Below are positions 27,061 to 51,700 of a stretch of DNA of 64,000 nucleotides, in pieces. Each line of letters opens with the position of its first letter. Position 1 is the first letter of the stretch. The notes beneath the pieces were generated by a model. The model saw nothing but the letters and a program-made list of their open reading frames with translations, was not told the origin of the DNA and searched no databases. The stretch is taken from assembly GCA_032622095.1 (NCBI GenBank), contig CP136069.1, positions 34,694,194-34,758,193 on the forward strand, read 5' to 3'. The stretch comes from Siphonodentalium dalli (lineage: Eukaryota; Mollusca; Scaphopoda; Gadilida; Siphonodentaliidae). The position numbers and the translations under genes were made by a program.

Positions 27061-27070
27061 ATTATATGTA

Positions 27071-28207: not shown

Positions 28208-28211
28208 TTAA

Positions 28212-29476: not shown

Positions 29477-30348
29477 GCAACATAGGAGACATCATCTTTG
29501 AGTTTTTATTAGTCAACGATATTCATGACCGATTATTCTTTCTCATCTTGTATCTATAACTATTTCTAAATACTACGATTCTCACAAACATTTGCTAAGC
29601 CATGAATGCACTCCATATTTGGAAATGGTTTATTATATTCCATGTTAATAAAGGCCTCAATTAATAACTGCTGTAAATCCTAATTTGGTAATAGTGTCAA
29701 TGTTTATTATTCGCCGCACATAATTGCACGGTATAGAGCTGAGCATTGCATTTTCCATTATGCTGCTACCGGGATCGACAATGCTTTCTTCTTCCTCCGC
29801 CTTAATGAATTGTTTACATAGGAGTTTAAGCTCATTAGTTGCACCCACAATATAAGAGACCCAAGACACTCAGAGCCTAAGAAATCTGTTCCTGCCTGCC
29901 CAAGATCAGACACTAATTAAACTCTGAGCCTCGTCTATTATCATAACCTCAACAGTTATTTACTTATACCCGCTGAGTTTTTGTAAAGTAAATATGGGCC
30001 TATTGTTTGGGCCCAACACCGATAAACTATATATAGGCGCCTTGTAAACATTGTGTTGTCAAATCTTAGAGAAGTACAACTTTTGTGTTTTCTTTTCTGT
30101 GGAATTCAATAGAAATGAAAATAATGAGCGTTGCATAATGACAAAAAACATGCAGTTAATTCTTGTTTTGCCGATGTCATTGTTGAGAAATGTTTTTTTT
30201 CCATTGCCATGCAATATATCTTGTTTACGCGGAGTGTGTCAATGTTTTATGCTAAAGATACACATTGTGTTCAATATATCAATTCTAAGATCCTGCAAAA
30301 CTAAGGTCTTGGTCATGATCATTATCTATTGATTAAAATAAGACCGAA
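29477..30348. other. Single-copy interval with a possible non-coding island
   Basis: 29650-30000 is complex sequence (TTCGCCGCACATAATTGCAC, GCTACCGGGATCGACAATG). Frames of 70 codons (-) and 93 codons (+) have no recognised domain. Confidence 0.4.
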
Positions 30349-30493
30349 CAGGCCTCACAGTATGGTGCTGGACATTTGCAGAATGAGGTTCCCATAGGGT
30401 GAATTTAACGCAGAGGCTATGCAGGGTAGCATCATTAAATTCACCCTCTGGGGACCTCATTCTGCTAGTGTCCAGCACCATATTTTGAGGTCT
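30349..30493. mobile_element. Family D single-hairpin derivative
   Basis: CAGGCCTCACAGTATGGTGC at the left and GCACCATATTTTGAGG at the right enclose one hairpin. The end sequence matches the long D element at 685, a third end-subtype. Confidence 0.8.
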
Positions 30494-30528
30494 ATTGGAC
30501 CAGCACAATCCAATTTTTGCATGTCATT

Positions 30529-30825
30529 CAAGTCTGAGTTTAGTGTTCCTGTCATTTGCAGAATGAGGTCTCCAGAGGGTGAATTTAGTGACGCTATCCC
30601 ACACAGTGGGCTAGCATCACCAAATTCACCCTACGGGGACCTCATTCTCCATGTCCTCATCTGCTAAGGGAGACATATAGACTCAATTTGAGGTTCCTAA
30701 ATAGTGAATATTGTGATGTACACCCATTGGGAATTTCGATTATGCAATGTGTCATCTGCCAATTTTGGGATAGCATCACTAATTTCACCCTCCAGGTACC
30801 TCATTTTGCAAAAGACAGGTAGTAA
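30529..30825. mobile_element. Family D element, right end decayed
   Basis: CAAGTCTGAGTTTAGTG starts the element. The left hairpin is complete (stem ...GGTCTCCAGAGGGTG); the right hairpin has lost its left arm and ends near CATTTTGCAAAAGACAGG. Confidence 0.75.
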
Positions 30826-31009
30826 TGTTTACATACATTAATTGTAGCTAATGCTTTTTCGATGTGCCCTTAATCTGATGAATCAACCCTTCTAAAATGT
30901 TATTGTTCGGTTATTGTATGATAAACCACAATAGAGAGGCGACAATAATTAATAACGAACTGCTTTCTTATTGAAATGAAAAGTCGTTCAAACAGCGATT
31001 GCTGATATA

Positions 31010-31222
31010 CAGTAATGCTCTAAATAATCGACTCCTTAACCACAGCAGAATTATGGGTAACTTTTCAGGATTTAGTCGGAAATATGGCTTATTGCCATTC
31101 ATCGGAAAGCTCTCGCCGAGAGCTTTCCGATGAATGGCAACAAGCCATATTTCCAACTAAATCCTGAAAAGTTACCCATAATTCAGCTGTGGTTAAGGAG
31201 TCGATTATTTAGAGCATTACTG
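31010..31222. mobile_element. Family A foldback MITE
   Basis: TA-flanked, same subgroup as 27071. Loop CTCGCCGAG. Arms differ at GACTTAGTCGG / CCAACTAAATC-type positions only slightly. Confidence 0.95.
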
Positions 31223-32471
31223 TATAAGATTCCATGTTGCAGAATCTGATACATATACTATCAGTGATAGCTAGCATTTGGCAATTTCTAAAAGAATTTT
31301 GTAAAAAATATATTCATTTGGCAACATATTTGCCAAAAGGAAAATTTGGTCCAGTGCGAACCCTGCTTCTTGCCCTTAGTTCCTCCGTTACTCCTGCATT
31401 TGATACACAGATTGTGCGAAAGTGCCTCCCGATGCATGGAATTTATGATGAATCATTACAGCCTTACTACCGATGCTTTTTATCTCGCCTAAGACTCTTA
31501 GTTATCAGTAAGGCTGCAGTATAGTGCGTCGAATTACTCTACAGATGTCTTTGATACAAAAGAATTGCGTAAAAGGAGAGAAAGAGGAAGAAAAATCGTA
31601 ATTGCTATCCTTTGTGGGAAATTTGAACGGGAAGGCTTTCCTAACCCCAGGATCCAATTTAATGTTTCGTCTTGTCTTATTCAACAGTTATATTTTAGAT
31701 GCGTATGAGTCAATGCAGACTCTTTGATCTGAGGGCTGTGACGTTATTAATTTTGAGATCATCCCTAAATTTGGATTCAGATAATTAATCTTCATGATAA
31801 TAAAGGAAATTTTAGGTATCATTTGGACCAGAGGTTATCTTTGACCAGAGGTTATCTTTGACACTGATATCATACAAGTTTTCAGTGGCATTGATGGTTT
31901 TTCGTCAATCGAATGGAATGATCTAATCATGTCATTTGGATGTCTTGTCTGCTGGGTGGGGGTGGGGGGGGGGGGGGGGGGGGTGATGAGACAGGTTTCC
32001 CAACTGAAATCCAACTTTAAGAAATTCTATTTGCCCTCTGCATTGTTAACTTGATATTTTATTATTATTTTATCTGAAACGTCCCCATCTTCTAGAAATA
32101 TACAGTCAAAACTTTTTATCTACTCAAGTTGGGGATTTGTCGTTGAAAAAAAATAAATAAATATTTTTCATTCCAGTAACTCAATGAGTTCTGATGCCTT
32201 AGTGATTTTAAATTTTGGATTGCCAATGTGTGGGGTTGGAATTTTACCACCTACAACCCCCCTATTATTCCACCATCCTCCCCACCACCTACAACCCACT
32301 CCACTAATACCCCACCCCCCCCCCCCCCCCCCCCATACACATAGTTCCCACATAGGCCCATCTAACTTGGGAGTCGATCCAGACCATTTTATTCATTTGT
32401 ATTACAATTCCAATAACCAGTAGATTTAAGGCCTAATTAGACAGGAAATTATTCATCTTTAGCACAGTGTA
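31223..32471. other. Single-copy interval with long G and C runs
   Basis: Contains a G-run of about 20 at 31963-31983 and a C-run of about 20 at 32311-32331, 330 bp apart. A 96-codon plus frame (31234-31524) begins inside the A element's flank and has no recognisable domain. The proline/histidine-rich frame at 32184-32423 is a product of the C-rich simple sequence. Confidence 0.5.
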
Positions 32472-32642
32472 CAATAATGCCCTAAATTATCGACTCCTTA
32501 ACCACAGCAGAATTATGGGTAACTTTTCAGAATTTAGTTGGAAATATGGCTTGTCGCCATACATCGGAAAGCTCTCAGTGAGAGTTTTCCGATGAATGGC
32601 AACAAGCCATATTGCCCACTAAATCCTGAAAAGTTACCCATA
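32472..32642. mobile_element. Family A foldback MITE, right end truncated
   Basis: CAATAATGCCC start; palindrome up to AAAAGTTACCCATA, then unrelated sequence. About 40 bp of the right arm is missing. Confidence 0.9.
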
Positions 32643-32911
32643 TTTGTAATCGCACTTCCGACTATTTCTAATATTGGAAATTCTCTGGATTATTACCTGT
32701 CATCTGAAGACTTTGGTCTGTCACAGCATTGCCACCTAAAACCTCGTTAATATTCAATGATATGGAAACAGGTAGGAGGGCTGTCTACAGTGTCTAGACA
32801 AGGAGAGTTATTCATAGGAATATGATACCATGGTTTCACACTTTATCATGGAGGTCATTTTCACAGACTGTGTCAGTGTCCTGTCCCCCTCCTGGTTAAC
32901 CAGGTAACCCT
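32643..32911. other. Single-copy interval
   Basis: Nothing recognised. Confidence 0.3.
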
Positions 32912-33069
32912 TTCATGACTGGAGCTTCCTGAAATCCGATGAATGGCAACAAGCCATATACTGAGAGCTTTCCGATGAATGGCAACAAGCCATATTTCCG
33001 ACTAAATCCTGAAAAATTACTCATAATTCTGCTGTGATTAAGGAGTCGATTATTTAGGGCATTATTGTA
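32912..33069. mobile_element. Family B end joined to family A fragments
   Basis: CCCTTTCATGACTGGAGCTT and CCTGAAA of family B run directly into TCCGATGAATGGC of family A. The A right arm tip then occurs twice (CAACAAGCCATATACTG, CAACAAGCCATATTTCC) before the A terminus GGGCATTATTG at 33069. AGAAAGGGTTAA follows at 33076-33087, possibly a leftover TTAA-type terminus. A deletion/rearrangement junction rather than a clean insertion. Confidence 0.75.
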
Positions 33070-33135
33070 TTTAGTAAAGAAAGGGTTAAACTTGTGGGTT
33101 TTTGACAAATTTCTTCTTGAAAATTGTCAGCTTAG

Positions 33136-33240
33136 CCCTTTTATACTAACTACTCATTGATGAGTAGTTCCCATAGGAAATGTTCACATAATAAGTTCAG
33201 TCATTTTGTTGAACTTATTAATCTGAACATTTCCCTCCAA
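33136..33240 (+). mobile_element. Family F fragment (left part)
   Basis: TTAG then CCCTTTTATACTAACTACTC, GGAAATGTTCACATAATAAG and the second hairpin arm ATTTTGTTGAACTTATTAAT. Similarity fades near 33240. Confidence 0.75.
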
Positions 33241-33278
33241 TAACTTGGATCATTGCATGAACCAATTCATTGCTGTGT

Positions 33279-33521
33279 TGCGCTGGTGCAGCATTAAGTA
33301 TCCTGTGCCAGTGCATTCTATTATATATGCGAGTCTCCCATGGGGAGCCTCACATATACAAGAGAATGCTCTGACTTACAATGTCAAGGTATATATTGTT
33401 AGGCCAATGTATTCTCTTATATATGTGAGGCTCCCTATGGAAGACTCGCATATATATATGAGAGGATGCATTAGCACCGGGTTTTTGCAAATTTCAGGAC
33501 GCTCCAGTCATAGAAGGTTAA
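33279..33521 (-). mobile_element. Family B element, inverted
   Basis: GCGCTGGTGCAGCATTAAG to CCAGTCATAGAAGG, then TTAAC. Both hairpins are recognisable, with loops CTCCCATGGGGAG and CTCCCTATGGAAG. The longest frame in the window (148 codons at 33245-33691) runs across this element and is an artefact. Confidence 0.85.
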
Positions 33522-33524
33522 CAA

Positions 33525-34158
33525 GAAATTATTTTATTGTACCAATTTTAAACTTTCAGCCTACCCCTGATCATTTCATAAATTTCAAATTTTTCAGTTC
33601 TCCAATTAGCCCCTCCCCTATATCTCCCCTCCATCCAACTCTTGTCACCTCTTTATATCATCAGCTTTTGTCATCCCTACATGTGTGTTGAAAAAAAAAC
33701 TATGCTCGGAATAAATACGACCAGGCATGAATGCAGGATCGTGGATGACACTACTCCCTAGCAGCGTTTTTCCATCGATCTACATTTCTCTCCAAGTTAA
33801 ATCTATTGCTGTGTGAATTCCCATTGGACTCTCAAATGACTTCCATTGAAGTGATCCGGTTCTAATCAAGTGTCTTTCCATTTGGATACCATTCTCATTA
33901 GCCTTCGACAATGAAATCTCCAGATACCGCTCCGATGTTGATGACTCGGCTTTGATTTCCGCGAACATAATAATACCTCACAGTGATGTGGATAATAACT
34001 CCTATTCCCAGGTGTAACGTTACCTGCGAAAATGTAGGTGGAACAAAAGACCTCAGACTCAATTAGCGAAAACGTCAGTCTCGTCAACAATCTCAACTTC
34101 AAATAATGCTCCGCTAGGCTACAGCAACTTAATAGCCTCGTTTATAGAACCATTTCAA
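33525..34158. other. Single-copy island, possible non-coding element
   Basis: 33720-34140 is complex and CpG-containing (GATCGTGGATGACACTAC, CCGCTCCGATGTTGATGACT, GGTGTAACGTTACC). Two overlapping minus-strand frames of 62 and 78 codons have no domain or splice support. Confidence 0.4.
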
Positions 34159-34273
34159 CAAGCTTGCAAATAGTGTGTCTGTCATTTGCAGACTGAGGTT
34201 CCCAGAGGGTGAATTTAGTGACGCAATCCCGCATAGTGGACTAGCATCACCAAATTCACCCTCCGGGGACATC
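34159..34273. mobile_element. Family D single-hairpin fragment
   Basis: CAAGCTTGCAAATAGTGTG, then the left hairpin up to GGGGACATCATAAT. The linker and right half are absent. Confidence 0.8.
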
Positions 34274-36427
34274 ATAATACTTTAATGTTATACTATTTTC
34301 TGTAACATTGCACTGTCAACATGTATATGAATGTTATCAATATAAAATCTAATCTAATCTGCAAGTTCCACTGTTTGTCACTTGTTGGAAATTCGGAATG
34401 GTAATTTTTACAGTATATTTACTCTTTTTTTTCATCTTTATATTTCCTGAATCTACTTTTTCCCCCACAAATGTTCAGAAAACGAGGTAAACTATTTGTG
34501 TGGCCCTATTGCAAAGCAGAACACAGCCCTATTTCAGCACACACTATAGCTTAATCCTCCCTTGATTTCTTCTCATCAAAAACACCTGTCATTCATATCA
34601 CAGCAATCAGCCAATTAGGATGACTGAAGCTGGGTAAAGCTGAACACTATTAGTGTTAAGTTGTTCAGAGGGCATCAACACTCCGATGTTTATATTGTCT
34701 GGGAACATTGAGACTCACCCATCTCCTCATGCTGGAGGGTGGAGTGTGTTTTTTATTCGCTGTTTATCAGTCATGGTTTATACTGTAACAATAACTGTTA
34801 TGTTTAATAGCGTGGTAATTGTTTTCTCCAGTATCTTTGTATGTTATTACCTTCACTGTGCGAGTCTGACTTCTTCAGTGCTGATTACCCCTCATAGAGC
34901 CCCCAGGCAGACATAGCCATATGGTGGGGGGGGGCTGCATGGGAGGGCTGCAGCCCCCTCCCAACATTTTGTTGTGAGCTCAAATTGGTGCAAATTGAAA
35001 ATATTTGCAACAATTGGGACAAATTGAATGGTATTTCAGGGGAAAATTGTGGTAAATATATAACATTATTTTGTTCACATTTCTGCCCAAAATTATACAT
35101 ATTTAAGGTTAATTTAAATCTATTTTGTTACATTTATGTGTATATACAAGGTATATTCTACAAAAACTCTGTTATAATAATGAACCTCATGAAAGGGGTT
35201 AACTGCAAGTAAACAGGTCCAGCCTCTTATCTTTAATAGGTGCTCTGCCCCCTGCTCAGATCACATGTTAATGAGTCAATGGAACTATGGTCCATAAATG
35301 TCTAGGATTGTTCATATTATCACAGACCTTGGTGATTACCTCCAAGAATGCACTCAAGGCTCAAGTGTACAGAAACTAGATCTAAAGTGGCCCCTGATGA
35401 TAATTAGATATACAGGCATCAGTTCCCATTGTGAAATGTTATCAGCTATGACCTGGCGCTAAACAGACTTTAATTCTCATGATACTATCAACTAATTTAT
35501 CAGTAGATTGTAACAATTTATGTTTCATTTTGTTTAGCATTAATAGGGGGCGTGTAACAAGGTATTACAATAGGATTGGAGTGTATCAGTAAGATCTGGC
35601 ATTTAGGTATTTGACTAAATCCTCCCACACATGATACCTGAGCCACATTTAGGAGATAAGTTTATAAGATATGTCTATTGTGTGTCTGAACATGTGTACT
35701 GTATGATCTGACTCATATTTAAGTCAGTGGGTCATTCACATTGCTGATTCACATTGATGTCCAAGCATGCCAGCATGCAGGTAAAATTGGCTGGGTTAGC
35801 AGGTTGGTTGGCTTGTTGGATGTTTAAGTATTGTTCAGATGTTTGGACATGTCAGAACACAAACTCCAGGCAGAGTTATCTCCCATCACTCCGCTGAGAT
35901 ACCACTGCCATAATGACATTAATTGGTAAGGAATTCTTACGTGTTTTTAGTTCTTATGTTTTAGGATTAAAATTGTCTATGTCTGGCTCAGTTCATATTG
36001 TTCTTATCAATACCGAAAGAATTACCATTATTGCAAACTTTAAAACAAATTTGGTGGTCAAAACAAGATAATAGCTAGGTGACTAAATAGTAGTAATACA
36101 GTTCCGTGACGATATGTAAAAATAGAATTATCGTCTGCAAGTACACTCATTGTGGCAGTGATATACATGTATATCGCAGCGATAGCGTAGAGGGCGCTGT
36201 ATGGAGTTTGGTCAGAACATTGTCTCTTTTGGTGATGTTAGAGGGATGGCAGATGGTGATTACTTTTGCTATGAAATTAGGCCAATGCACGTAGAAACCA
36301 CCAATATCTGGTAAGCGACTGACAAACATATAGCTATATACGTTATCGGGCGGCCGCTCATCAGGTTGACATTCCTTTCAAAGTGCCTTTGCCATTGCTG
36401 GACGTCTTATAATGGTTTAATGCTGTT
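34274..36427. other. Longest single-copy interval in the left half
   Basis: Mostly AT-rich. Local features are a GC-rich hairpin GGGAGGGCTGCAGCCCCC near 34940 and a CpG-containing patch at 36100-36360 (GCAGCGATAGCGTAGAGGGC). Frames of up to 96 codons have no recognised domains. No gene called. Confidence 0.4.
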
Positions 36428-36735
36428 TAAAGGTACACAATTAAATATGATGGTCCCCATATCATCAGATTCCAACAACAACATTTCTTCAAAAGACGCT
36501 TTATTTATCAGAATTGATTAATTACACAAAACGTAGTGTTTTTTATATATTTTTTTTTTTTTGGGTTGAATTATTTTTGGGTATGCTTAAGCATGCTATA
36601 GCGAATTTAAAAACAAACTGGATAAGTCCTTAGGGGCATGTTATAACTCAAAACTATCACCAAGTATTCATAGTAATAATTTTGATGCCCATGAAAAACG
36701 TAAGATTCCCTGGCACTAAACCTACAAAATAAGCC
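36428..36735 (+). repeat. Dispersed repeat L, copy 2 (partial)
   Basis: TTTAAAGGTACACAATTAAA, CATCAGATTCCAACAACAAC, ATTTCTTCAAAAGACGCTTT and ATTGATTAATTACACAAAAC match copy 3; the 3' part is diverged or replaced. Confidence 0.7.
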
Positions 36736-36829
36736 TGGCACTGAATGAGTTAGGCAAAGAAATTTTGAAAACTATTGGTTAGATATTAAATGTAGATATA
36801 GTTACACTTTTTTGCAAGTATTACTGAGT

Positions 36830-37205
36830 ACTAAAGGCACTCAATCCTATCAGACAGTCCCGATATCATCAAGTTACAATAATAATCACATTTCTTCAAA
36901 TTACGCTTTAGTTAAGTTATCAACATCGATTAATTAAAACAAAATAATGCTAACCACTGTCAACTATCGTATAAAATTTCCCAAAACATGTTATTAATTA
37001 CCGAGACCGTAGCCTTGACAAATTATTTCCAGGTCACAAATAAGTACATATCTCGAGAAATAACGAATTTTTTCAAAAATTGATTTCTGATCACTCTGAG
37101 AGGTGGGTTCCTCGACTCGAATCAGATATTTTTTACCCCTGAAGCTGCCTGAAGCCAAAGAAATAGTAATTTGGGAGCATTAATTTGGATTATGCATCTT
37201 TTACC
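36830..37205 (+). repeat. Dispersed repeat L, copy 3
   Basis: CTAAAGGCACTCAATCCTAT to AATTTGGATTATGCATC. Matches copy 1 throughout, but carries a ~40-bp insertion containing GTGGGTTCCTCGACTCG. Copies 2 and 3 are adjacent, ~400 bp apart. Confidence 0.8.
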
Positions 37206-37701
37206 ATATTTACTGAACAGTTTTGCTGTCTGGAAGCAAACATGTCGAGCGTTGCTCAAATGCTTCCAAAATAAAAAGTAGAGATAAGCGACCAGGCAGA
37301 AATACTTTAACATTTACATAGATCATCTCATATTTACCATCACGTGGGAGCCCCAGAGAAATTAGCCACATGTCATTGTTACAGCAAACACCAGGGAGTT
37401 TTACGGCCCCCTAATGTTTGTAATCCACTCTGTTACTGATCCCAGCAAAGACGAATCACTATCGATTTCGGACCACATAGGCACGTGAAAAGCGGTGGGT
37501 TTCTTCTTCTAAAAGGTCTTCACGTTTTTCTTCCTTTGGTTCTAAATTGGAAGTCATAAAATACTGACAATTCAAATAGAATCAAATTCATCTGGGCCCC
37601 TTTGACGTCTATTGTGTTTCAAATTGAGACATCTCAAGTGTTATATAATAATTCTGGAAATGTCTGATGAATTCTTACAATGGTCTGCCCTGGACAGAAA
37701 C
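37206..37701. other. Single-copy interval, CpG-containing patch
   Basis: 37330-37640 is complex (CATCACGTGGGAGCCCC, ACTATCGATTTCGGACC, ATTGAGACATCTCAAG). No open frame of note. Confidence 0.35.
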
Positions 37702-38161
37702 CCTGCCTGAGTTTAGTGTTCCTGTCATTTGCAGAATGAGGTCCACAGAGGGTGAATTTAGTGATGCTATCCCGCATAGCGGGCTAGCATCACTAAATTC
37801 ACCCTCTGGGGACCTCATTCTGCGTAAGCCTCATCTTCTCACGAAAGTTTCTTTATTATGAAATATCTATAGAAACTTCTTCACATAGATTCTGTTTCTT
37901 TTTTTAGTTTAGGTTCTCTATATCACCAAATTGGCAGACGACACATTGCTTAATTGAGGTTCCCAATGGGTGCACATTACAATATTTACCATTTGGGAAC
38001 TTCAGTCAGTCTATGTCTCCCATAGCAGATGAGGCCTAAGCAGAATGAGGTCCCCAGAGGGTGAATTTGGTGATGCTAGCCAACTATGCGGAATAGCATC
38101 ACTAAATTAACCCTCTGGGGACCTCATTCTGCAAATGACAGACACACTAAACTCAGACTTA
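37702..38161. mobile_element. Family D twin-hairpin element
   Basis: Both hairpins are intact (loops CCCGCATAGCGGG and CCAACTATGCGG). The ends are of the GAGTTTAGTG subtype. Flanking octamers ACAGAAAC and ACAGATGT share only 5 of 8 bases, so the target duplication is weak. Linker homologous to that of 24611. Confidence 0.85.
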
Positions 38162-38315
38162 ACAGATGTCCTGATAGTGTTGCTCTTCAATAGGATCGCA
38201 TGGTCTTTGATATTTTTCTATTGGTGATGTCTTGTGCTGAGAAGTAGAACATTGAGATTTCATCTTGATCTTCGAATCACCACACACATAAAAACCATCT
38301 AATTATTGAACCCTT

Positions 38316-38731
38316 TCATGATGGGAGCTGTGCTGGTGCAGCATTAAAGATCTTATGCCAGTGCATTCTCTTACAGTAATACTCTAAATAATCGACTCCT
38401 TAACCACAGCAGAATTATGGGTAATTTTTCAGGATTTAGTCGGAAATATGGCTTGTTGCCACTGAGAGCTTTCCGATGAATGGCAACAAGCCATATTTCC
38501 GACTAAATCCTGAAAAATTACCCATAATTCTGCTGTGGTTAAGAAGTCGATTATTTAGGGTATTACCGCATATATAAGAGAATGCATTGGCCTACAAGGT
38601 CAAAGTAAATATTGTTAGTCTAATGTATTCTCTTTTATATGCGAGGCTCCCTATGGGAGACTCACATAAATAAGAGAATGCTTTAGAACAGGGTTTTCAT
38701 AAAATTTCATGAATCTCCATTCATGGAAGGG
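38316..38731 (-). mobile_element. Family B element split by a family A insertion, inverted
   Basis: CCCTTTCATGATGGGAGCTG to CATTCATGGAAGGG. The first hairpin is interrupted in its arm after CATTCTCTTA by an A element and resumes at CATATATAAGAGAATGC. TTAA at 38732-38735 is shared with a family F end. Confidence 0.85.
38375..38568. mobile_element. Family A foldback MITE nested in B
   Basis: CAGTAATACTC ... GGGTATTACCG. The left arm tip is deleted (TTGTTGCC runs into ACTGAGAGC). The terminal change AATAC / GTATT is present in both arms. Confidence 0.9.
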
Positions 38732-38735
38732 TTAA

Positions 38736-38796
38736 CCCTTTCTATACTAAATATTCATTGACGAGTAGTTCCCTTAGGAAATGTTCATATAACAAG
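38736..38796 (+). mobile_element. Family F terminal fragment
   Basis: CCCTTTCTATACTAAATATTC, then TTGACGAGTAGTTCCC and GGAAATGTTCATATAACAAG, then loss of similarity. Confidence 0.75.
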
Positions 38797-39073
38797 TTTT
38801 AAAAAAAAGTATTCTTTGTCTTAGTGATACAAGACACACATGTAGTTTTATCGAACAATCATTGAACATCAGGTCATCTAATGATTCCTAAATTCAAATA
38901 CTAATATTAGGTATTTAAACATGCATATTATTTGTCAGTATTTATACCTGTTTGTTATTGTCAATATTATGTTACCTGTCCTGACTAACATCACTGGATA
39001 GTGGTCAGTCAATAAAGTATTCTATTCTATTCTATAACAAATCACCATATTATTATTTGGGATAGAAGTTTAA

Positions 39074-39330
39074 CCCATTCTATACTAAATCGATTCTCCC
39101 ACTCAGTCATAATAGTATACATTGGAATGGTCTATTTTTCATTTGGATGGGTGTTCAGGTAATATTTAAAGCAGACAACAGACAGATATTACAAGAGCAG
39201 AATGATTCATATTCATTGATGACAAATGTCCGGGTAATAAGTTCAACAAACAATGGTCGTTTTGTTGAACCTATTATGTGAACATTTCAAAAGGGAACTA
39301 CTCGTCAATGAGTATTTAGTGTAGAAAGAG
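39074..39330 (-). mobile_element. Family F TTAA-type element, inverted
   Basis: TTAA (39070-39073), CCCATTCTATACTAAATCG, GATTCTCCCACTCAGTCAT, central hairpin GGGTAATAAGTTCAACAAAC / TTTTGTTGAACCTATTATG, terminus CTCGTCAATGAGTATTTAG...AGAAAGAG. The right TTAA is decayed to CTTA. Confidence 0.8.
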
Positions 39331-40298
39331 CTTAGCTCAATTTTACAAAAAGAAATCTGTCAAACACCCACAAGGTTTCTGACTGATTGTAAACATGGCT
39401 ATAATGCTTGTGCGGCTTCATTTACACGATGATGGTTTTGTAAAGCGTTTACAGTTAAAGCCATCAATTAAAGGCCAAATCTAATTCAACACCACTCGTC
39501 GACGAAACTCATTCTTTCCGAAAACTGAAATCCATTTATTTTCTGCCAGTTTGCAATTTTGTTGAAACTAAATGGATTTTCGGAGACTTGGAATTCGTGT
39601 ACAGACTAGAGAGAAGGACTGTAATTGGATTTACTCGTTATTTGTTTTGATCAATTAATTATTAATAATTTATGCGCGAATGTCGCAGGTGATACTCCGG
39701 CTGCTCTGTGCATGAGAGCACAATCACGATGCATCTTGGGAATTAGCCGCAACTGATTGTATGAAGAAGTGTCACCGAGATCGCATAATTAAATTGCTGT
39801 TTCGGATATTGATGCCAGGGCTCAGAGAACTCATTCAATTACACGATTCTTCTGTCATCCGTTTTTCCCAGAAGAGAATTGTCTTTTTTAGTAAATTAAC
39901 ATTTTTGCGATCCGACTCGATTGGTACACATGTCATTTAACCTTCAAAGTTCACACTCTGTCAACTTGCTTCAGCGTCTCCTCCTTATTAGGAAATGTCT
40001 CTTGCTATTTATTGTTGACGCTTCCGCAGAATTTTTTCAGCATCATAAAACAACCAAATTGAACCATCAGAATTGGTTTTGGTTTGTGACTCATTTTCCA
40101 TCCCGTCAGATTTCTGATCCCCCTCAGAATCTCATTTCGAAACAACTTTTTACAATTTTACCCTTTCATTACTGAATGTGATGTGACGTGACTCGATGTG
40201 ACATGACGCGATGTGATGTGATGTCTTGTTGACAGAAAAAGTATAATTTTAACAAGATGACAATGACAAGATGATGTTTTCTCTTTCTTAAACCTTCT
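39331..40298. other. Single-copy island, possible non-coding element
   Basis: 39430-39900 is complex, unrepeated sequence with CpGs (CACTCGTCGACGAAACTC, TTTATGCGCGAATGTCGCAG) and AT-rich homeodomain-like motifs (ATCAATTAATTATTAATAAT). At 40176-40223 there is a degenerate GATGTGA/ACGTGA simple repeat. The 84-codon frame at 39921-40175 has no recognisable domain. Confidence 0.4.
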
Positions 40299-41223
40299 CA
40301 AGCCTGAGTTTAGGTGCCTGTAATTTTCAGAATGAGGTCCTCAGAGGGTGAATTTGGTGATGCTATCCCACACAGTGAGCTAGCATCACCAAATTCACCC
40401 TCTGGGGACCTCATTCTGCTTGGCCTCAACTGCTATGAGAGACCTAGAATGAGACTGAAGTTCCCCAGTTGAAGTTGGTGCTGTTCACCCATTAACCCTT
40501 TACCCAACAGAAGGGCCCTGTGCCAATGCATTCTCTTATATATGCGAGTCGACCATAGGTTGCCTCGCATATATAAGAGAATGCATTGGCTTAACACATT
40601 AAAAATTATAAAATTGTTAAAGAATGTAAGAAAAAATGGTAAAAAGTGTTAAAAAAAGATTTTTTTAGGCCAATGCATTCTCTTATATATGCGAGGCGAC
40701 CTATGGTCGACTCGCATATATAAGAGAATGCATTGGCACAGGGCATAACTGTAACTATCACAATGTGGTCAAGGAGCCGGTTCCAATGATATCCATATTT
40801 GTATGGTTCTATTGAGACAGACCGAAGATATTTTAGGCTGTTGAAGCTTTATTTGGCCGGTTATGGCCGGTTTGTTGGGTAAAGGGTTAATCAACTCGAT
40901 TATGCTTTTTATCTTCTGCAAATCTTCACAGAAGCGAAAAATTAACTAAAAGCAATGTTAATTTGAGACTATAGATACTTCCCAGAAGATGAGGCCTAAG
41001 CAGAACTAGATTAGTTCAGATGGTAGAGTATATGGTAGAGTTACTCTGTTAGTATTTACATGTACGTACGGCAAAATTTTCCATCATTTTTTTTATTTAA
41101 ATAAAATATCATTCATTTAAATCACTTTGATTTAATTTGGCCAACCCTGGAACTTAATGGAGAAAGACTAATACAAATTTTTATGGAGGATTCTCTAAAT
41201 GACAGACACTATCTTCAGGCTTG
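40299..41223. mobile_element. Family D element with a nested family C
   Basis: CAAGCCTGAGTTTAGG at the left, left hairpin intact, linker interrupted by C at a TTAA (CACCCATTAA / TTAATCAACTCG; the copy at 20752 reads TTAACCCATTTAGTCAACTCG). After GGCCTAAGCAGAACT the right hairpin is replaced by other sequence. A right terminus, AAATGACAGACACTATCTTC followed by AGGCTTG, ends it. Confidence 0.75.
40496..40886 (+). mobile_element. Family C piggyBac-like MITE, copy 7 (nested in D)
   Basis: TTAA at 40492-40495 and 40887-40890. One loop stem has an uncompensated change (CGACCATAGGTTG). Confidence 0.95.
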
Positions 41224-41359
41224 TGTGGAGGATTCATCAGGCCGCGTTCCTGTCGGTTAATTTGTCTTTGAACAGGAGACACGAGAGCATTCAGTCATTC
41301 ATCACTGAGATATATCTCCGTCGTGGATTCCCGATCACCGGATATATCAGTATGTCGTA

Positions 41360-41791
41360 CAAGTGGTGTGTCTGTCATTTGTAGAATTAGGTCCCCAGAG
41401 GGTGAATTTAGTGATGCTATACTGCACGGTGGGCTAGCATCACCAAATTCACCCTCAGGTGACCTCATTCTTCTTTATAGGCCTCATCTTCTGGGAATTA
41501 TCTAGAGTCTCAAATTAACATTGTTTTTAGTTACTTTTTCCCTTCTGGGAAGTTTCTATATCACCTAATATATTTGCAGAAGATAAAATGCATAATCGCG
41601 GTTACTAATGGGTGAACATTACCAACTTCAATCCTATCCTACATCTCCCATAGCAGTTGAGGCCTAAGCAAAATGAGGTTCTAAGAGGTTGAATTTGATG
41701 TTGCTAGCCCACCGTGCAGGATATAGCGTCACTAAATTCACCCTCTGGGAACCTCATTCTGCAAATGACAGACACACTATTTGCAGGCTTG
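41360..41791. mobile_element. Family D twin-hairpin element with long flanking direct repeats
   Basis: CAAGTGGTGTGTCTGTC at the left (about 10 bp of the terminus missing) and CACACTATTTGCAGGCTTG at the right. Left and right flanks are 26-bp direct repeats (41334-41359, 41792-41817; ATCAC.GGAT.TATCAGTATG) with two mismatches, touching the element exactly. Loops are CACGGTGGGC and CACCGTGCAGG. It lies ~170 bp upstream of the candidate exon. Confidence 0.85.
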
Positions 41792-41875
41792 ATCACGGGA
41801 TGTATCAGTATGTCGTAGTGCGTCCCAACGGAGATTTGTCATCATGTCTGATCCGTATTGATTTCATTACAGGTA

Positions 41876-42047
41876 GTGAAGTCTAGAGCGGACGATGTGC
41901 AGAGCTCGTCGAACATATAAGGAACTTACACGAATCTCAAACAACTAAACAACGAAGCCATGCATCGCGATGTCATGTTAGGATTATTTGTGCGACTTTT
42001 GTGTTCTGTGATTCTTCTGTTTTCTTCTTGCGTGTATGGATTTAATG
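41876..42047 (+). CDS. Candidate first coding exon of a secreted or membrane protein (ATG at 41960)
   Basis: The ATG at 41960 is in a good context (GAAGCCATGC, G at -3). The 29 codons before the donor begin MHRDVM and continue with a hydrophobic core, LGLFVRLLCSVILLFSSC, then VYGFN: the shape of a cleavable signal peptide with a short charged start. The frame meets a strong donor, ATG|GTGAGT, at 42047/42048 in phase 1; without splicing it stops at TGA two codons later. Phase-1 introns just after a signal peptide are common in animal secreted and receptor genes. Upstream, TTGATTTCATTACAG ends at 41875, so the exon may start at 41876 with a 5' UTR exon further upstream. Alternatively 41818-41959 is promoter plus UTR. 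No downstream exon is visible, so the protein cannot be named. The next ~20 kb is transposons and minisatellite. The start of the feature is the possible acceptor; coding begins at 41960. Confidence 0.45.
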
Positions 42048-42068
42048 GTGAGTGATTTAGCCTCTGTA

Positions 42069-42331
42069 CCCTCTTGTTATCGAATGGATTTTCTCATTCA
42101 ATTATCAATGTACACTTTGGAATAATCTATTATTCATATGGAGGGATGTTCAGGAAATTTAAGCAGAGGACGGACAGCTGAACAAGCGATACAAGTGAAG
42201 AAGGATTTCTATTAGTTGGTGGAAAATGTTTAGATAATAACTTCAACAAACTATGGTTGTTTATTGTACTTATTATCTGAATATTTCCCAAGGGATAACT
42301 ACTCGTCAATGAGTATTTAATAAAGAAAGGG
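42069..42331 (-). mobile_element. Family F element, inverted
   Basis: CCCTCTTGTTATCGAATGG, the distal block TCTCATTCAATTATCAATGT, hairpin AGATAATAACTTCAACAAAC / TTATTGTACTTATTATCTGA, terminus CTCGTCAATGAGTATTTAAT...GAAAGGG. Targets decayed (TGTA, TGAA). It starts 21 bp after the candidate splice donor. Confidence 0.8.
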
Positions 42332-42345
42332 TGAATACCTCTATA

Positions 42346-42861
42346 CCCTTTTATTACTTAATGGATTCTTCCATTCGATTAGTAAAGTATACAATGGAAT
42401 GGTTTATTTTTCATTTGTAGGGATGTTAGGATACTATAAGCAGATGACAGGTAGACAAATCCCCTATAAAGGTTTCAATTGTACAGTAATGCCCTAATTA
42501 ATCGACTCCATAACCAAAGCAGAATTATGGGTAACTTTTCAGGATTTTGTCTGAAATATGGCTTGTTGCCATTCATCGGAAAGCTCTCGGGGAGAGCTTT
42601 CCGTTGAATGGCAACAAGCCATATTTCCGACTAAATCCTGTAAAGTTACCCATAATTCTGCTGTGCTTATGGAGTTGATTAATTAGGGCATTACTGTAGC
42701 TGGGCTATTCTGCTAATATGTTAAACAGTTTAAGCAGAAATACTATATAGTATCTCTGGTCTAAGGCTGTCTGTTGAACTTATTAGCTGAACATCTCTAC
42801 ATATGAATAAATGGGAATCAGTTAATTACTCATTAGTGAGTAGGCCTCGGTTATCGAAGGG
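42346..42861 (-). mobile_element. Family F element split by a family A insertion, inverted
   Basis: CCCTTTTATTACTTAATGG start, F interior to TTCAATTGTA, then the A element, then decayed F with TGTTGAACTTATTAGCTGA, ACTCATTAGTGAGTAGG and a terminus ATCGAAGGG. In tandem with the preceding F copy. Confidence 0.75.
42484..42696. mobile_element. Family A foldback MITE nested in F
   Basis: TA-flanked. Both arms share changes not seen together in other copies: CCCTAATTAATCGACTCCAT paired with ATGGAGTTGATTAATTAGGG (one mismatch). Confidence 0.95.
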
Positions 42862-43075
42862 TTACAGTTGTATTATCTCCCTTGAGCCATTTAGCTGGGC
42901 TGTTTATCGTAGAGTGTCAAGCTTCTAGGGTTGTCATAGTTTTCAGATTTATAAAATAAAATTTATTATTATTAATAGACTATTGGTACCTTGCTATTCA
43001 AAATCATTGATCTCCCTTTCTTCACAAGATTAGAAATTCTATTAAATATCTATGATATATTGTTATCGGGACATG

Positions 43076-43278
43076 CAGTATTGCCCGAAATAAACGACTC
43101 CTTATAACCACACCAAAAGTATGGGTAATTTTTCAGGATTTAGTCGAAATATGGCTTGTTGCCATTCATCGGTGAGAGCTTTCTGATGAATGGCAACAAG
43201 CCATATTTCCGTCTAAATCCTGAAAATTTACCCATAATTCTGCTGTGGTTAAGGAGTCGATTATTTAGGACATTACTG
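43076..43278. mobile_element. Family A foldback MITE, diverged
   Basis: CAGTATTGCCCGAAATAAACG ... GGACATTACTG, without TA duplication. The left arm tip is shortened (CATCGGTGAGAGC). Confidence 0.9.
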
Positions 43279-43939
43279 AAACTTCATACATGCATTATAT
43301 AATGCGATGATATATAAATTGTTCATCTTCTTGGAAATTCCTTATTTTGATCTCGTCATCCCCTCACCTGTACAAGGAACATTTTGTAGTTGACACAGCA
43401 GTTACCAACCACATAAAAATGCTGATCAAGCTGAATGTTATAATCAAATCCTGTGACATTTTGATGAAGTTTTTCTTCATTTTGATGAATTTTCTTGGCA
43501 TTTTGATGCATACCTTGCCACTAGTCTGTGCTATAGACATGAGACCCTGCAACGATCTCGTGGACAGCTTTGCTACTCAGACGATTACTTTCGTGACATA
43601 TTGTTTGTTCCGTAGTAGGCTCGATGACAGAGGGCTCTCGGAAACTAATCATTTCCTTCTCCAATCTTCTGTACCATAAACATTTCCACCTAGATCGACA
43701 TTGATTTTGAAGTGAAATTCATTAATTTTCCGACAAGCCAGCCCAGATTGTTTGGCAGAGAAGAGAGCTCATCACCAGAATTATATACTACCACTGTTTA
43801 CTTTTTGCAAACAAGTTTAACCCTCGATTGAGAGCTTTTGTGACTTAATTCTGTTTAATTAAAGTGGCATACAGCCTTGGGAGTGGGTAATGTGAAAATT
43901 CAAAAAGGTTTGTAGAACTTTGTACATCCATCACCACAA
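43279..43939. other. Single-copy interval
   Basis: A 110-codon plus frame (43347-43679) is partly made of ATTTTGATGAA repeats (43458-43510) and has no recognisable domain. 43540-43740 is CpG-containing (GACGATTACTTTCGTGAC). No splice-supported exon seen. Confidence 0.4.
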
Positions 43940-43943
43940 TTAA

Positions 43944-44366
43944 CCCTTTACCCAACAAAGCGGCCAAAAACGCCCAAATGAAGCTTCAACAGCCTAAAAT
44001 ATCTTCGGTCTGTCTCAATAACACCATACAAATATGGATATCATTGGAACCGGTTCATTGACCACATTGTGATGGTTACAGTTATGCCCTGTGCCAATGC
44101 ATTCTCTTATATATGCGAGTCGACCATAGGTCGCCTCGCATATATAAGAGAATGCATTGGCCTAAAACCATTTTTTCTTACATTCTTTAACAATTTTATA
44201 ATTTTTTCTTACATTTTTTATAATATTTTTCTACATTCTTTGACAATTTTATCATTTTTAATATGTGATAAGCCAATGCATTCTCTTATATATGCGAGGC
44301 GACCTATGGCTGACTCGCATATATAAGAGAATGCATTGGCACAGGGCCGTTCTGTTGGGTAAAGGG
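43944..44366 (-). mobile_element. Family C piggyBac-like MITE, copy 8 (inverted, long spacer)
   Basis: TTAA at 43940-43943 and 44367-44370. The AT-rich spacer between the hairpins is expanded (TTTTTTCTTACATT repeats), making this the longest C copy. One loop has GGCTGACTCGC. Confidence 0.95.
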
Positions 44367-44452
44367 TTAAAGAAGAATATGGAAATTAGACATAGACTTT
44401 TTTGTAACCCTTCTATGATTCAATAACTATTATACAATGCAAGAGCCCATTT

Positions 44453-45098
44453 AAAGTGATTTGAAACACTCTGGTAGGGTGATTAAAGTGATGTGAAACA
44501 CTCTGGTAGGGTGATTAAAGTGATGTGAAACACTCTGGTAGGGTGATTAAAGTGATGTGAAACACTCTGGTAGGGTGATCAAATAGAAATGGAGAATAAT
44601 CTTAAAGTGATGTGAAACACTCTGGTAGGGTGATCAAATAGAAATGGAGAATAATCTTAAAGTGATGTGAAACACTCTGGTAGGGTGATCAAATAGAAAT
44701 GGAGAATAATCTTAAAGTGATGTGAAACACTCCGGTAGGGTGATCAAATAGAAATGGAGAATAATCTTAAAGTGATGTGAAACACTCCGGTAGGGTGATC
44801 AAATAGAAATGGAGAATAATCTTAAAGTGATGTGAAACACTCCTGTAGGGTGATCAAATAGAAATGGAGAATAATCTTAAAGTGATGTGAAACACTCCGG
44901 TAGGGTGATCAAATAGAAATGGAGAATAATCTTAAAGTGATGTGAAACACTCTGGTAGGGTGATCAAATAGAAATGGAGAATAATCTTAAAGTGATGTGA
45001 AACACTCTGGTAGGGTGATCAAATAGAAATTGAGAATAATCTTAAAGTGATGTGAAACACTCTGGTAGGGTGATCAAATAGAAATTGAGAATAATCTT
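44453..45098 (+). repeat. Composite minisatellite: 3 x 32 bp then 10 x 55 bp
   Basis: The 32-bp core (AAAGTGATGTGAAACACTC then TGGTAGGGTGAT) starts at 44453, 44485 and 44517. From 44549 each core is followed by a 23-bp extension (CAAATAGAAATGGAGAATAA TCT) and the period becomes exactly 55 bp, up to 45098. Variants are a central CTCCGG block in units 4-7 and ATTGAG in the last two units. Not coding: the frame shifts and stops recur. Confidence 0.95.
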
Positions 45099-45474
45099 GC
45101 TCAATGTAGTTATTTGTTATGAATATTAATCCAAATTGAAAACATACGCGTCGTCATTATTATATATTAATTAATGCAAAGACTCTTGATGGCGAAATCA
45201 TTTGTGTTAGGTTATCGCCCACATCGAGATGTAAATATTTACAATTGAGTGTAGTAAAAAATAGACGATGTTTTCTATGGAGTGGTATGATCGATTTATT
45301 TAAATTTCACCGATATTAGTAGAATACTACATTCCCCAGGTTGGCATAGCGCCCGAGTACTAACTTATCAATTCCACGCACCTGAACAAGTCCATATGTC
45401 TTTAAAATGAGTAAGCAAACCAGCACACCATTAGAATCAGTAAATACGCTTTGAATATTCTGTTTGGTCACATA
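45099..45474. other. Single-copy interval
   Basis: AT-rich, with one CpG patch (TAGCGCCCGAGTACTAAC). Nothing recognised. Confidence 0.35.
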
Positions 45475-45676
45475 CAGTAATGCCCTAAATAATCGATTCC
45501 TTAACCACAGCAGAATTTTCAGGATTTTGTCGAAAATATGGTTTGTTGCCATTCATCGGAAAGCTCTGAGTGAGAGCTTTCCAATGAATGGCAACAAGCC
45601 ATATTTCCGACTAAATCCTGAAAAATTACCAATAATTCTGCTGTGGTTAAGGAGTCATTTATTTAGGGCATTACTG
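45475..45676. mobile_element. Family A foldback MITE, last copy before the large array
   Basis: TA-flanked, CAGTAATGCCC ... GGGCATTACTG. The left arm lost the ATGGGTAATTTT segment, and the loop is CTGAGTGAG. No further A copy occurs in the remaining 18 kb. Confidence 0.95.
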
Positions 45677-45750
45677 TACATACTGGTATATGAGAGAGAA
45701 GTCACTTAGGACAAAAATTAGGAGAAGTGATACATTTCAGAGAGAAAATA

Positions 45751-48700
45751 TCTCCCATGTCGCCCTCTAGGCTGGTCCCTGTCTCCCATGTCGCCCTCTA
45801 GGCTGGTCCCTGTCTCCCATGTCGCCCTCTAGGCTGGTCCCTGTCTCCCATGTCGCCCTCTAGGCTGGTCCCTGTCTCCCATGTCGTCCTCTAGGCTGGT
45901 CCCTGTCTCCCATGTCGCCCTCTAGGCTGGTCCCTGTCTCTCAGGTCGCCCTCTAGGCTGGTCCCTGTCTCCCATGTCGCCCTCTAGGCTGGTCCCTGTC
46001 TCTCAGGTCGCCCTCTAGGCTGGTCCCTGTCTCCCATGTCGCCCTCTAGGCTGGTCCCTGTCTCCCATGTCGTCCTCTAGGCTGGTCCCTATCTCCCAGG
46101 TCACCATCTAGGCTGGTCCCTGTCTCCCATGTCGTCCTCTAGGCTGCTCCCTGTCTCACAGGTCGCCCTCTAGGCTGGTCCCTGTCTCTCAGGTCGCCCT
46201 CTAGGCTGGTCCCTGTCTCCCATGTCGTCCTCTAGGCTGCTCCCTGTCTCACAGGTCGCCCTCTAGGCTGGTCCCTGTCTCTCAGGTCACCCTCTAGGCT
46301 GGTCCCTGTCTCCCATGTCGTCCTCTAGGCTGGTCCCTGTCTCCCATGTCGCCCTCTAGGCTGGTCCCAGTCTCCCATGTCGCCCTCTAGGCTGGTCCCA
46401 GTCTCCCATGTCGCCCTCTAGGCTGGTCCCTGTCTCCCATGTCGCCCTCTAGGCTGGTCCCTGTCTCCCATGTCGTCCTCTAGGCTGGTCCCTGTCTCCC
46501 ATGTCGCCCTCTAGGCTGGTCCCAGTCTCCCATGTCGCCCTCTAGGCTGGTCCCAGTCTCCCATGTCGCCCTCTAGGCTGGTCCCAGTCTCCCATGTCGC
46601 CCTCTAGGCTGGTCCCTGTCTCCCATGTCGCCCTCTAGGCTGGTCCCAGTCTCCCATGTCGCCCTCTAGGCTGATCCCTGTCTCCCAAGTCGCCATCTAG
46701 GCTGATCCTTGTCTCCCAAGTCGCCCTCTAGGATGGTCCCTGTCTCCCATGTCGCCCTCTAGGCTGGTCCCTGTCTCCCATGTCGTCCTCTAGGCTGGTC
46801 CCTGTCTCCCATGTCGCCCTCTAGGCTGGTCCCTGTCTCCCAGGTCGCCCTCTAGGCTGGTCCCTGTCTCCCATGTCGCCCTCTAGGCTGGTCCCTGTCT
46901 CCCATGTCGCCCTCTAGGCTGGTCCCTGTCTCCCATGTCGCCCTCTAGGCTGGTCCCTGTCTCCCATGTCGTCCTCTAGGCTGGTCCCTGTCTCCCATGT
47001 CGCCCTCTAGGCTGGTCCCTGTCTCTCAGGTCGCCCTCTAGGCTGGTCCCTGTCTCCCATGTCGCCCTCTAGGCTGGTCCCTGTCTCTCAGGTCGCCCTC
47101 TAGGCTGGTCCCTGTCTCCCATGTCGCCCTCTAGGCTGGTCCCTGTCTCCCATGTCGTCCTCTAGGCTGGTCCCTATCTCTCAGGTCGCCCTCTAGGCTG
47201 GTCCCTGTCTCTCAGGTCGCCCTCTAGGCTGGTCCCTGTCTCTCAGGTCGCCCTCTAGGCTGGTCCCTGTCTCCCAGGTCACCATCTAGGCTGGTCCCTG
47301 TCTCCCATGTCGTCCTCTAGGCTGCTCCCTGTCTCACAGGTCGCCCTCTAGGCTGGTCCCTGTCTCTCAGGTCGCCCTCTAGGCTGGTCCCTGTCTCCCA
47401 TGTCGTCCTCTAGGCTGGTCCCTGTCTCCCATGTCGCCCTCTAGGCTGGTCCCTGTCTCCCATGTCGTCCTCTAGGCTGCTCCCTGTCTCACAGGTCGCC
47501 CTCTAGGCTGGTCCCTGTCTCTCAGGTCACCCTCTAGGCTGGTCCCTGTCTCCCATGTCGTCCTCTAGGCTGGTCCCTGTCTCCCATGTCGCCCTCTAGG
47601 CTGGTCCCAGTCTCCCATGTCGCCCTCTAGGCTGGTCCCAGTCTCCCATGTCGCCCTCTAGGCTGGTCCCTGTCTCCCATGTCGCCCTCTAGGCTGGTCC
47701 CTGTCTCCCATGTCGTCCTCTAGGCTGGTCCCTGTCTCCCATGTCGCCCTCTAGGCTGGTCCCAGTCTCCCATGTCGCCCTCTAGGCTGGTCCCAGTCTC
47801 CCATGTCGCCCTCTAGGCTGGTCCCAGTCTCCCATGTCGCCCTCTAGGCTGGTCCCTGTCTCCCATGTCGCCCTCTAGGCTGGTCCCAGTCTCCCATGTC
47901 GCCCTCTAGGCTGATCCCTGTCTCCCAAGTCGCCATCTAGGCTGATCCTTGTCTCCCAAGTCGCCCTCTAGGATGGTCCCTGTCTCCCATGTCGCCCTCT
48001 AGGCTGGTCCCTGTCTCCCATGTCGCCCTCTAGGCTGGTCCCTGTCTCCCATGTCGCCCTCTAGGCTGGTCCCTGTCTCCCATGTCGCCCTCTAGGCTGG
48101 TCCCTGTCTCCCATGTCGCCCTCTAGGCTGGTCCCTGTCTCCCAGGTCGTCCTATAGGCTGGTCCCTGTCTCCCATGTCGCCCTCTAGGCTGGTCCCAGT
48201 CTCCCATGTCGCCCTCTAGGCTGGTCCCTGTCTCCCATGTCGTCCTCTAGGCTGGTCCCTGTCTCCCATGTCGCCCTCTAGGCTGGTCCCAGTCTCCCAT
48301 GTCGCCCTCTAGGCTGGTCCCAGTCTCCCATGTCACCCTCTAGGCTGGTCCCTGTCTCTCAGGTCACCCTTTAGGCTGGTCCCTGTCTCCCATGTCGCCC
48401 TCTAGGCTGGTCCCTGTCTCCCATGTCATCCTCTAGGCTGGTCCCTGTCTCCCATGTCGCCCTCTAGGCTGGTCCCTGTCTCCCATGTCATCCTCTAGGC
48501 TGGTCCCTGTCTCCCATGTCTCCCTCTAGGCTGGTCCCTGTCTCCCATGTCGTCCTCTAGGTTGGTCCCTGTCTCCCATGTCATCCTCTAGGCTGCTCCC
48601 TGTCTCCCATGTCGCCCTCTAGGCTGGTCCCTGTCTCCCATGTCGTCCTCTAGGCTGGTCCCTGTCTCACATGTCATCCTCTAGGCTGGTCCCTGTCTCC

Positions 48701-51700
48701 CATGTCGCCCTCTAGGCTGGTCCCTGTCTCCCATGTCATCCTCTAGGCTGCTCCCTGTCTCCCATGTCATCCTCTAGGCTGGTCCCTGTCTCCCATGTCG
48801 CCCTCTAGGCTGGTCCCTGTCTCCCATGTCGCCCTCTAGGCTGGTCCCTGTCTCTCAGGTCGTACTCTAGGCTGGTCCCTGTCTCCCATGTCATCCTCTA
48901 GGCTGGTCCCTGTCTCCCATGTCATCCTCTAGGCTGGTCCCTGTCTCCCATGTCGCCCTCTAGGCTGGTCCCTGTCTCCCAAGTCGCCCTCTAGGCTGGT
49001 CCCTGTCTCCCAAGTCGCCCTCTAGGCTGGTCCCTGTCTCACAGGTCGTCCTCTAGGCTGGTCCCTGTCTCACAGGTCGTCCTCTAGGCTGGTCCCCGTC
49101 TCCCATTCGCCCTCTAGGCTGGTCCCTGTCTCTCAGGTCACCCTTTAGGCTGGTCCCTGTCTCTCAGGTCGCACTCTAGGCTGGTCCCTGTCTCCTAGGT
49201 CGCCCTCTAGGCTGGTCCCTGTCTCCCAAGTCGCCCTCTAGGCTGGTCCCTGTCTCTCAGGTCACCCTTTAGGCTGGTCCCTGTCTCTCAGGTCGCACTC
49301 TAGGCTGGTCCCTGTCTCCCATGTCGTCCTCTAGGCTGGTCCCTGTCTCCCATGTCGTCCTCTAGGCTGGTCCCTGTCTCCCATGTCGCCCTCTAGGCTG
49401 GTCCCTGTCTCCCAAGTCGCCCTCTAGGCTGGTCCCTGTCTCCCATGTCGTCCTCTAGGCTGGTCCCTGTCTCCCATGTCGCCCTCTAGGCTGGTCCCTG
49501 TCTCTCAGGTCACCCTTTAGGCTGGTCCCTGTCTCCCATGTCGTCCTCTAGGCTGGTCCCTGTCTCCCATGTCACCCTCTAGGCTGGTCCCTGTCTCCCA
49601 TGTCGCCCTCTAGGCTGGTCCCTGTCTCTCAGGTCGCCCTCTAGGCTGGTCCCTGTCTCCCAGGTCGTCCTCTAGGCTGGTCCCTGTCTCTCAGGTCGCC
49701 CTCTAGGCTGCTCCCTGTCTCTCAGGTCGCCCTCTAGGCTGGTCCCAGTCTCCCATGTCGCCCTCTAGGCTGCTCCCTGTCTCTCAGGTCGCCCTCTAGG
49801 CTGGTCCCTGTCTCCCAGGTCGTCCTCTAGGCTGGTCCCTGTCTCTCAGGTCGCCCTCTAGGCTGCTCCCTGTCTCTCAGGTCGCCCTCTAGGCTGGTCC
49901 CTGTCTCCCATGTCGCCCTCTAGGCTGGTCCCTGTCTCCCATGTCGGCCTCTAGGCTGGTCCCTGTCTCCCATGTCGTCCTCTAGGCTGCTCCCTGTCTC
50001 CCATGTCGTCCTCTAGGCTGGTCCCTGTCTCCCATGTCGCCCTCTAGGCTGGTCCCTGTCTCCCATGTCGTCCTCTAGGCTGGTCCCTGTCTCCCATGTC
50101 GTCCTCTAGGCTGGTCCCTGTCTCCCATGTCGCCCTCTAGGCTGGTCCCTGTCTCGCACATGGCACTCTAGGCTGGTCCCTGTCTCGCACATGGCACTCT
50201 AGGCTGGTCCCTATCTCTCAGGTCGCCCTCTAGGCTGGTCCCTGTCTCTCATGTCGCCCTCTAGGCTGATCCCTGTCTCCCATGTCGTCCTCTAGGCTGG
50301 TCCCTGTCTCCCAGGTCGTCCTCTAGGCTGGTCCCTGTCTCCCATGTCGCCCTCTAGGCTGGTCCCTGTCTCCCAGGTCGTCCTCAAGGCTGGTCCCTGT
50401 CTCCCATGTCGCCCTCTAGGCTGGTCCCTGTCTCCCAGGTCGTCCTCTAGGCTGGTCCCTGTCTCCCAGGTCGTCCTCTAGGCTGGTCCCTGTCTCCCAT
50501 GTCGCCCTCTAGACTGGTCCCTGTCTCTCAGGTCGTCCTCTAGGCTGGTCCCTGTCTCCCATGTCGCCCTCTAGGCTGGTCCCTGTCTCCCAGGTCGTCC
50601 TCTAGGCTGGTCCCTGTCTCCCAGGTCGTCCTCTAGGCTGGTCCCTGTCTCCCATGTCGTCCTCTAGGCTGGTCCCTGTCTCTCATGTCGTCCTCTAGGC
50701 TGGTCCCTGTCTCCCAGGTCGTCCTCTAGGCTGGTCCCTGTCTCCCATGTCGCCATCTAGGCTGGTCCCTGTCTCCCAAGTCACCCTCTAGGCTGGTCCC
50801 TATCTCCCAGGTCGTCCTCTAGGCTGGTCCCTGTCTCTCATGTCGTCCTCTAGGCTGGTCCCTATCTCCCAGGTCGTCCTCTAGGCTGGTCCCTATCTCC
50901 CAGGTCGTCCTCTAGGCTGGTCCCTGTCTCCCATGTCGTCCTCTAGGCTGGTCCCTGTCTCTCATGTCGTCCTCTAGGCTGGTCCCTGTCTCCCATGTCG
51001 TCCTCTAGGCTGGTCCCTGTCTCCCATGTCGGCCTCTAGGCTGGTCCCTGTCTCCCATGTCGCCCTCTAGGCTGGTCCCTGTCTCCCATGTCGTCCTCTA
51101 GGCTGGTCCCTGTCTCCCATGTCGTCCTCTAGGCTGGTCCCTGTCTCCCATGTCGCCCTCTAGGCTGGTCCCTGTCTCCCATGTCGCCCTCTAGGCTGGT
51201 CCCTGTCTCCCATGTCGCCCTCTAGGCTGGTCCCTGTCTCCCATGTCGCCCTCTAGGCTGGTCCCTGTCTCCCATGTCGTCCTCTAGGCTGGTCCCTGTC
51301 TCCCATGTCGTCCTCTAGGCTGGTCCCTGTCTCCCATGTCACCCTCTAGGCTGGTCCCTGTCTCTCAGATCGCCCTCTAGGCTGGTCCCTGTCTCCCATG
51401 TCGTCCTCTAGGCTGGTCCCTGTCTCCCATGTCGTCCTCTAGGCTGGTCCCTGTCTCCCATGTCGCCCTCTAGGCTGGTCCCTGTCTCGCACATGGCACT
51501 CTAGGCTGGTCCCTGTCTCTCATGTCGTCCTCTAGGCTGGTCCCTGTCTCCCAGGTCGTCCTCTAGGCTGGTCCCTATCTCCCAGGTCGTCCTCTAGGCT
51601 GGTCCCTGTCTCTCATGTCGTCCTCTAGGCTGGTCCCTATCTCCCAGGTCGTCCTCTAGGCTGGTCCCTATCTCCCAGGTCGTCCTCTAGGCTGGTCCCT

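Follow-up and report, generated by a model that had tools for sequence, protein, structure and literature searches.

The window, which is the whole 64-kb stretch of DNA analysed here, contains a short ATG-started frame that ends at a splice-donor motif. The frame lies in an island of single-copy sequence between two repeat copies, D and F. The features of this locus are:

41360-41791, unstranded: D, a copy of a hAT-like non-autonomous element (MITE), from self-comparison and its terminal repeats
41794-42081, unstranded: island of 288 bases, single-copy in the window at E 1e-5 (self-comparison) and CpG-preserved (CpG count)
41960-42047, plus strand: candidate first coding exon, 29 signal-peptide-shaped codons and one further base (phase 1), from sequence reading and a signal-peptide scan
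42048-42053, plus strand: candidate splice donor GTGAGT, 6.1 bits with an approximate matrix
42082-42335, unstranded: F, one copy of a repeat and about 75% similar to that at 10159-10408, from self-comparison

The candidate exon opens with the ATG at 41960, and its 29 sense codons (MHRDVMLGLFVRLLCSVILLFSSCVYGFN) end at 42046. The G at 42047 is the first base of codon 30 and is directly followed by GTGAGT, and the donor is thus in phase 1. In the unspliced frame, a TGA follows at 42053-42055, two codons past the donor. The ATG, the 29 codons and the GTGAGT are as an earlier sequence-only reading had described them, and self-comparison agrees with its placing of D and F on the two sides of the exon, with D ending at about 41791 and F starting at 42082. 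That reading had also called the donor near-consensus, which holds for the intron side but not for the exon side (ATG/GTGAGT, 6.1 bits). The donor context is GAAGCCATGC, with a G at -3. Together with a donor at 10914, the candidate donor scores lowest among the nine that reach 6 bits on both strands outside the minisatellite described below.

The cleavage-site score of the candidate frame was 6.8, with the best cut after S22 (approximate von Heijne matrix), and its top 10-residue hydropathy was 2.76. The ATG-started frame has a hydrophobic core and, by this matrix, a permissible cleavage site, and a phase-1 donor motif, identified from the letters of the DNA, lies near that site. The donor, acceptor and cleavage-site matrices used here are approximate and were not trained on this organism. 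The hydrophobic part of the frame is 55% T; T-rich stretches are a usual source of false signal peptides.

Four further features were seen upstream of the ATG:

about 41848, plus strand: possible branch point CTGAT, read by eye
41862-41872, plus strand: possible acceptor TTTCATTACAG, 4.5 bits with an approximate matrix
41895-41948, plus strand: short upstream reading frame from ATG to TAA, read by eye; it would belong to the leader only with splicing at the 41872 acceptor
41916-41922, plus strand: TATA-like box TATAAGG, 44 bases 5' of the ATG, picked by eye; a possible alternative to the acceptor

The acceptor-like sequence reported ahead of the exon is present, although an exon behind it would start at 41873 and not at 41876, the boundary originally given. 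Outside the minisatellite, the frequency of acceptors scoring 4.5 bits or more is 0.44 per kb per strand. Transcription may start from the TATA-like box at 41916, giving a very short leader. Alternatively, an upstream exon may be spliced into 41873, which would place the 41895-41948 frame in the leader and D within a 5' intron. The proposal that D may affect the promoter thus depends on the start used.

Two articles report that phase-1 introns are over-represented around the cleavage sites of animal signal peptides (PMC1626468) and that, in human genes, signal peptides are linked to long introns of phase 1 (PMC7259759). The candidate shares with such first exons the start codon, an arginine in the n-region, the hydrophobic core, a small residue before the likely cut and a phase-1 donor just behind it, and differs in being known here from the sequence motifs of a single exon. 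It conforms to the established pattern without extending it. We consider it quite possible, at a little under even probability, that the frame is real and opens the coding region of a gene whose protein is secreted or membrane-bound, either as a complete first coding exon or as the initial coding portion of exon 2. Building on the directly observed frame, donor motif, single-copy island and CpG content, the ATG at 41960 would be used for translation and the hydrophobic stretch would direct the product to the ER, with cleavage by signal peptidase near S22, as preferred by the matrix, or alternatively near the small residue G27. The exon would splice in phase 1 to a partner that lies past the end of the window or is too small to recognise, with the intron leading to the mature part of the protein. 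D would then be an insertion upstream of a coding exon and F an insertion in its intron.

The chance expectation of such a combination was examined with the window itself and with Markov null windows. Outside the minisatellite, 703 ATG frames have 20 codons or more (nested starts counted separately), and 39 of them were signal-peptide-like by the approximate von Heijne matrix and hydropathy. None of the donors of at least 6 bits lay inside the minisatellite. Two conjunctions of a signal-peptide-like frame with a donor were found on the two strands together outside the minisatellite, and the candidate is consequently not the only such segment in 64 kb, as had been claimed. The second is:

43501-43368, minus strand: signal-peptide-like frame ending at the donor CAG/GTGAGG, phase 2, from the signal-peptide and donor scan

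Among Markov windows of order 1 (n=400), order 3 (n=600) and order 5 (n=400), 14%, 12.2% and 5%, respectively, held at least one loose conjunction; the thresholds were chosen after the candidate had been seen, and these and the following percentages are therefore descriptive. In the same order, a loose phase-1 conjunction was found in 5.2%, 4.5% and 0.8% of windows, and one passing an intermediate criterion in 2%, 2% and 0.8%. Conjunctions at least as extreme as the candidate were present in 0.8%, 0% and 0.5%, and two or more loose conjunctions, the number observed here, in 0.2%, 0.5% and 0.2%. A smaller first run (order 3, n=200) gave 0.5% for a conjunction as extreme, 2.5% for two or more loose conjunctions and 6.5% for a loose phase-1 conjunction. 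The reversed sequence, an imperfect control, contained 55 such donors and no conjunctions. This rarity in the Markov nulls, moderate and with post hoc thresholds, favours something real.

The CpG content of the island was also compared with its surroundings. The CpG observed/expected ratio of the island, whose first 24 bases belong to a short direct repeat beside D, is 1.17-1.18 compared to 0.56 for positions 1-45750. Its maximum of 13 CpG is reached by 1.1% of 200-base windows. We regard this evidence as modest because, among the 41 single-copy islands that are 150 bases or longer, 7, the candidate's included, have a ratio of at least 1.0.

The sequence-only reading had proposed looking downstream for a phase-1 acceptor exon. 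The search extended to the window end at 64000, and no convincing partner for the phase-1 frame was found in 42061-64000. Outside the minisatellite, the frame can be continued from five plus-strand acceptors scoring 3 bits or more, none of which passes the length-or-donor filter. At a threshold of at least 2 bits there are nine, and only the one at 63002 passes; it lies inside a repeat and is without a good donor. A six-frame Pfam search covering 1-45470 and 62642-64000 found no domain above the cut-off (1-14000, 14000-28000 and 27800-41800 at E up to 0.1; 41793-45470 and 62642-64000 at E up to 1). The sole Pfam rows named YneP (E 0.011, 0.22 and 0.4, below the cut-off) and came from three minus frames within 41793-45470; they were taken as an artefact because their coordinates fall in a 55-bp tandem array. 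The candidate exon had no PDB match, Rfam gave no match at the gathering score and a tRNA scan by the bacterial code returned none. The partner exon may lie beyond the window, be too small or weak to recognise, or be non-existent. A phase-1 two-cysteine peptide in frame at 43538 was rejected as a partner, its acceptor scoring -4.4 bits. This frame's own start at 43464 is signal-peptide-like (5.8) but without a strong donor, and the 43538/43464 frame had no PDB match.

Most of the sequence downstream of the candidate is occupied by a single array:

45751-62641, plus strand: 31-bp minisatellite that the candidate's intron would have to cross, from repeat analysis and an acceptor scan

The array spans 17 kb and comprises about 545 copies of the 31-bp unit at 92% matches, with a GC skew of about -0.28. 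The 195 acceptor-like sites in it that reach 4.5 bits or more are confined to the plus strand, where their density is about 11.5 per kb compared to 0.44 per kb per strand elsewhere; the minus strand has none. Most of these sites sit in unit variants reading ...CTCTCAG or ...CTCCCAG. All 195 continue the candidate's frame, for a median of 24 and a maximum of 55 codons, and the strongest plus-strand donor in the array has at most 0.7 bits. From these motifs, the sites could act only as short-frame last exons or as decoys, and are predicted to be decoys rather than exons. The sole basis for the statement that the following 22 kb are intronic was the absence of a partner, and such an intron is harder to believe because it must pass 195 decoys on its own strand. 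On this ground we lowered our estimate for a real exon from about even to somewhat below. A more specific form of it, in which the exon opens a lineage-specific gene for a secreted protein and stands alone in a repeat-rich stretch with its donor facing the 17-kb minisatellite and its 195 same-strand acceptor-like sites, went from doubtful to unlikely. Were this specific form true, a transcript spliced into the array would reach a stop after 55 codons at most, and the array length could set the share of transcript that reaches the true second exon.

The description of the frame as the first coding exon of a gene for a secreted or membrane protein is a reasonable, though tentative, reading. The statistics and the preserved CpG lean somewhat towards it, although neither a partner exon nor a domain was found in the parts of the window searched. 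A real exon is hardly more likely than chance, whereby a T-rich stretch behind an ATG stays open for 31 codons, meets GTGAGT and has no use as an exon; we give this, too, a probability approaching one half. The proportion of signal-peptide-like ATG frames outside the minisatellite (39/703) and the occurrence of loosely similar conjunctions in 5-14% of Markov windows are consistent with chance. The T-rich hydrophobic part, the second such case on the other strand and the negative results of the partner-exon (window), Pfam and PDB searches likewise argue against a real exon. In favour of one are the position of GTGAGT just behind the likely cleavage site of a signal-peptide-like frame, the rarity of equally extreme cases (0-0.8% of Markov windows) and the preserved CpG of the stretch (1.18 compared to 0.56), the last two of which speak against chance.

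It is also conceivable, though distinctly unlikely, that the real exon is the minus-strand frame at 43501-43368 and that the plus-strand frame arose by chance. The minus-strand frame is signal-peptide-like with a lysine-rich start and has the strongest of the nine donors, at 8.6 bits compared to 6.1, but its cleavage-site score is lower (3.9 compared to 6.8) and it overlaps a short 21-base tandem repeat at 43457-43508. Among its 99 frame-continuing acceptors of at least 2 bits, eight pass the filter; each qualifies on length (45-103 codons) rather than through a donor of 5 bits or more. Under this arrangement the two frames face each other 1.3 kb apart, and two long first introns would overlap in antisense. 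The in-frame stop two codons beyond the donor and the insertions close by on each side would suit a first exon that has decayed, severed from its gene by the insertions, or an unspliced peptide of 31 residues that starts here. We consider this very improbable, as neither the frame nor its start context nor the donor motif is damaged, and there is no sign that any gene was lost. If the plus-strand exon is real, it would place a gene start where no domain is recognisable, with its donor before a long acceptor-like array. The gain would be mostly one of annotation, since the pattern of a signal peptide, phase 1 and a long first intron is already well known.

The repeats around the candidate were characterised further. 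D has terminal inverted repeats (CAAGCCTTGAAATAG...) and, at some copies, 8-bp direct repeats, and may be a hAT-type MITE; hAT elements produce 8-bp duplications. Of the 10 D copies or fragments examined, 2 have perfect abutting 8-bp direct repeats, the copy at 20752 (repeat at 20744) and that at 22611 (repeat at 22603). In contrast, the copy beside the exon, at 41360, is abutted at both ends by a direct repeat of 26-27 bp, not 8 (41333-41359 and 41791-41817, 25/27 identical). No transposase domain was found in the Pfam-searched parts of the window (1-45470 and 62642-64000). Exact patterns taken from the repeats had no match in viral contigs (two patterns) or in prokaryotic contigs (one pattern). 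Other short CpG-preserved stretches, at 4800-5000, 24141-24400 and 27661-27900, are comparable with or stronger than that of the candidate. The segment at 2690-2900 is CpG-rich and resembles a tRNA-derived SINE, with motifs like box A and box B. Palindromes of about 205-217 bases that are 82-92% self-complementary lie at 42482-42698, 43076-43278, 45473-45678 and elsewhere, with many full or partial copies across the window.
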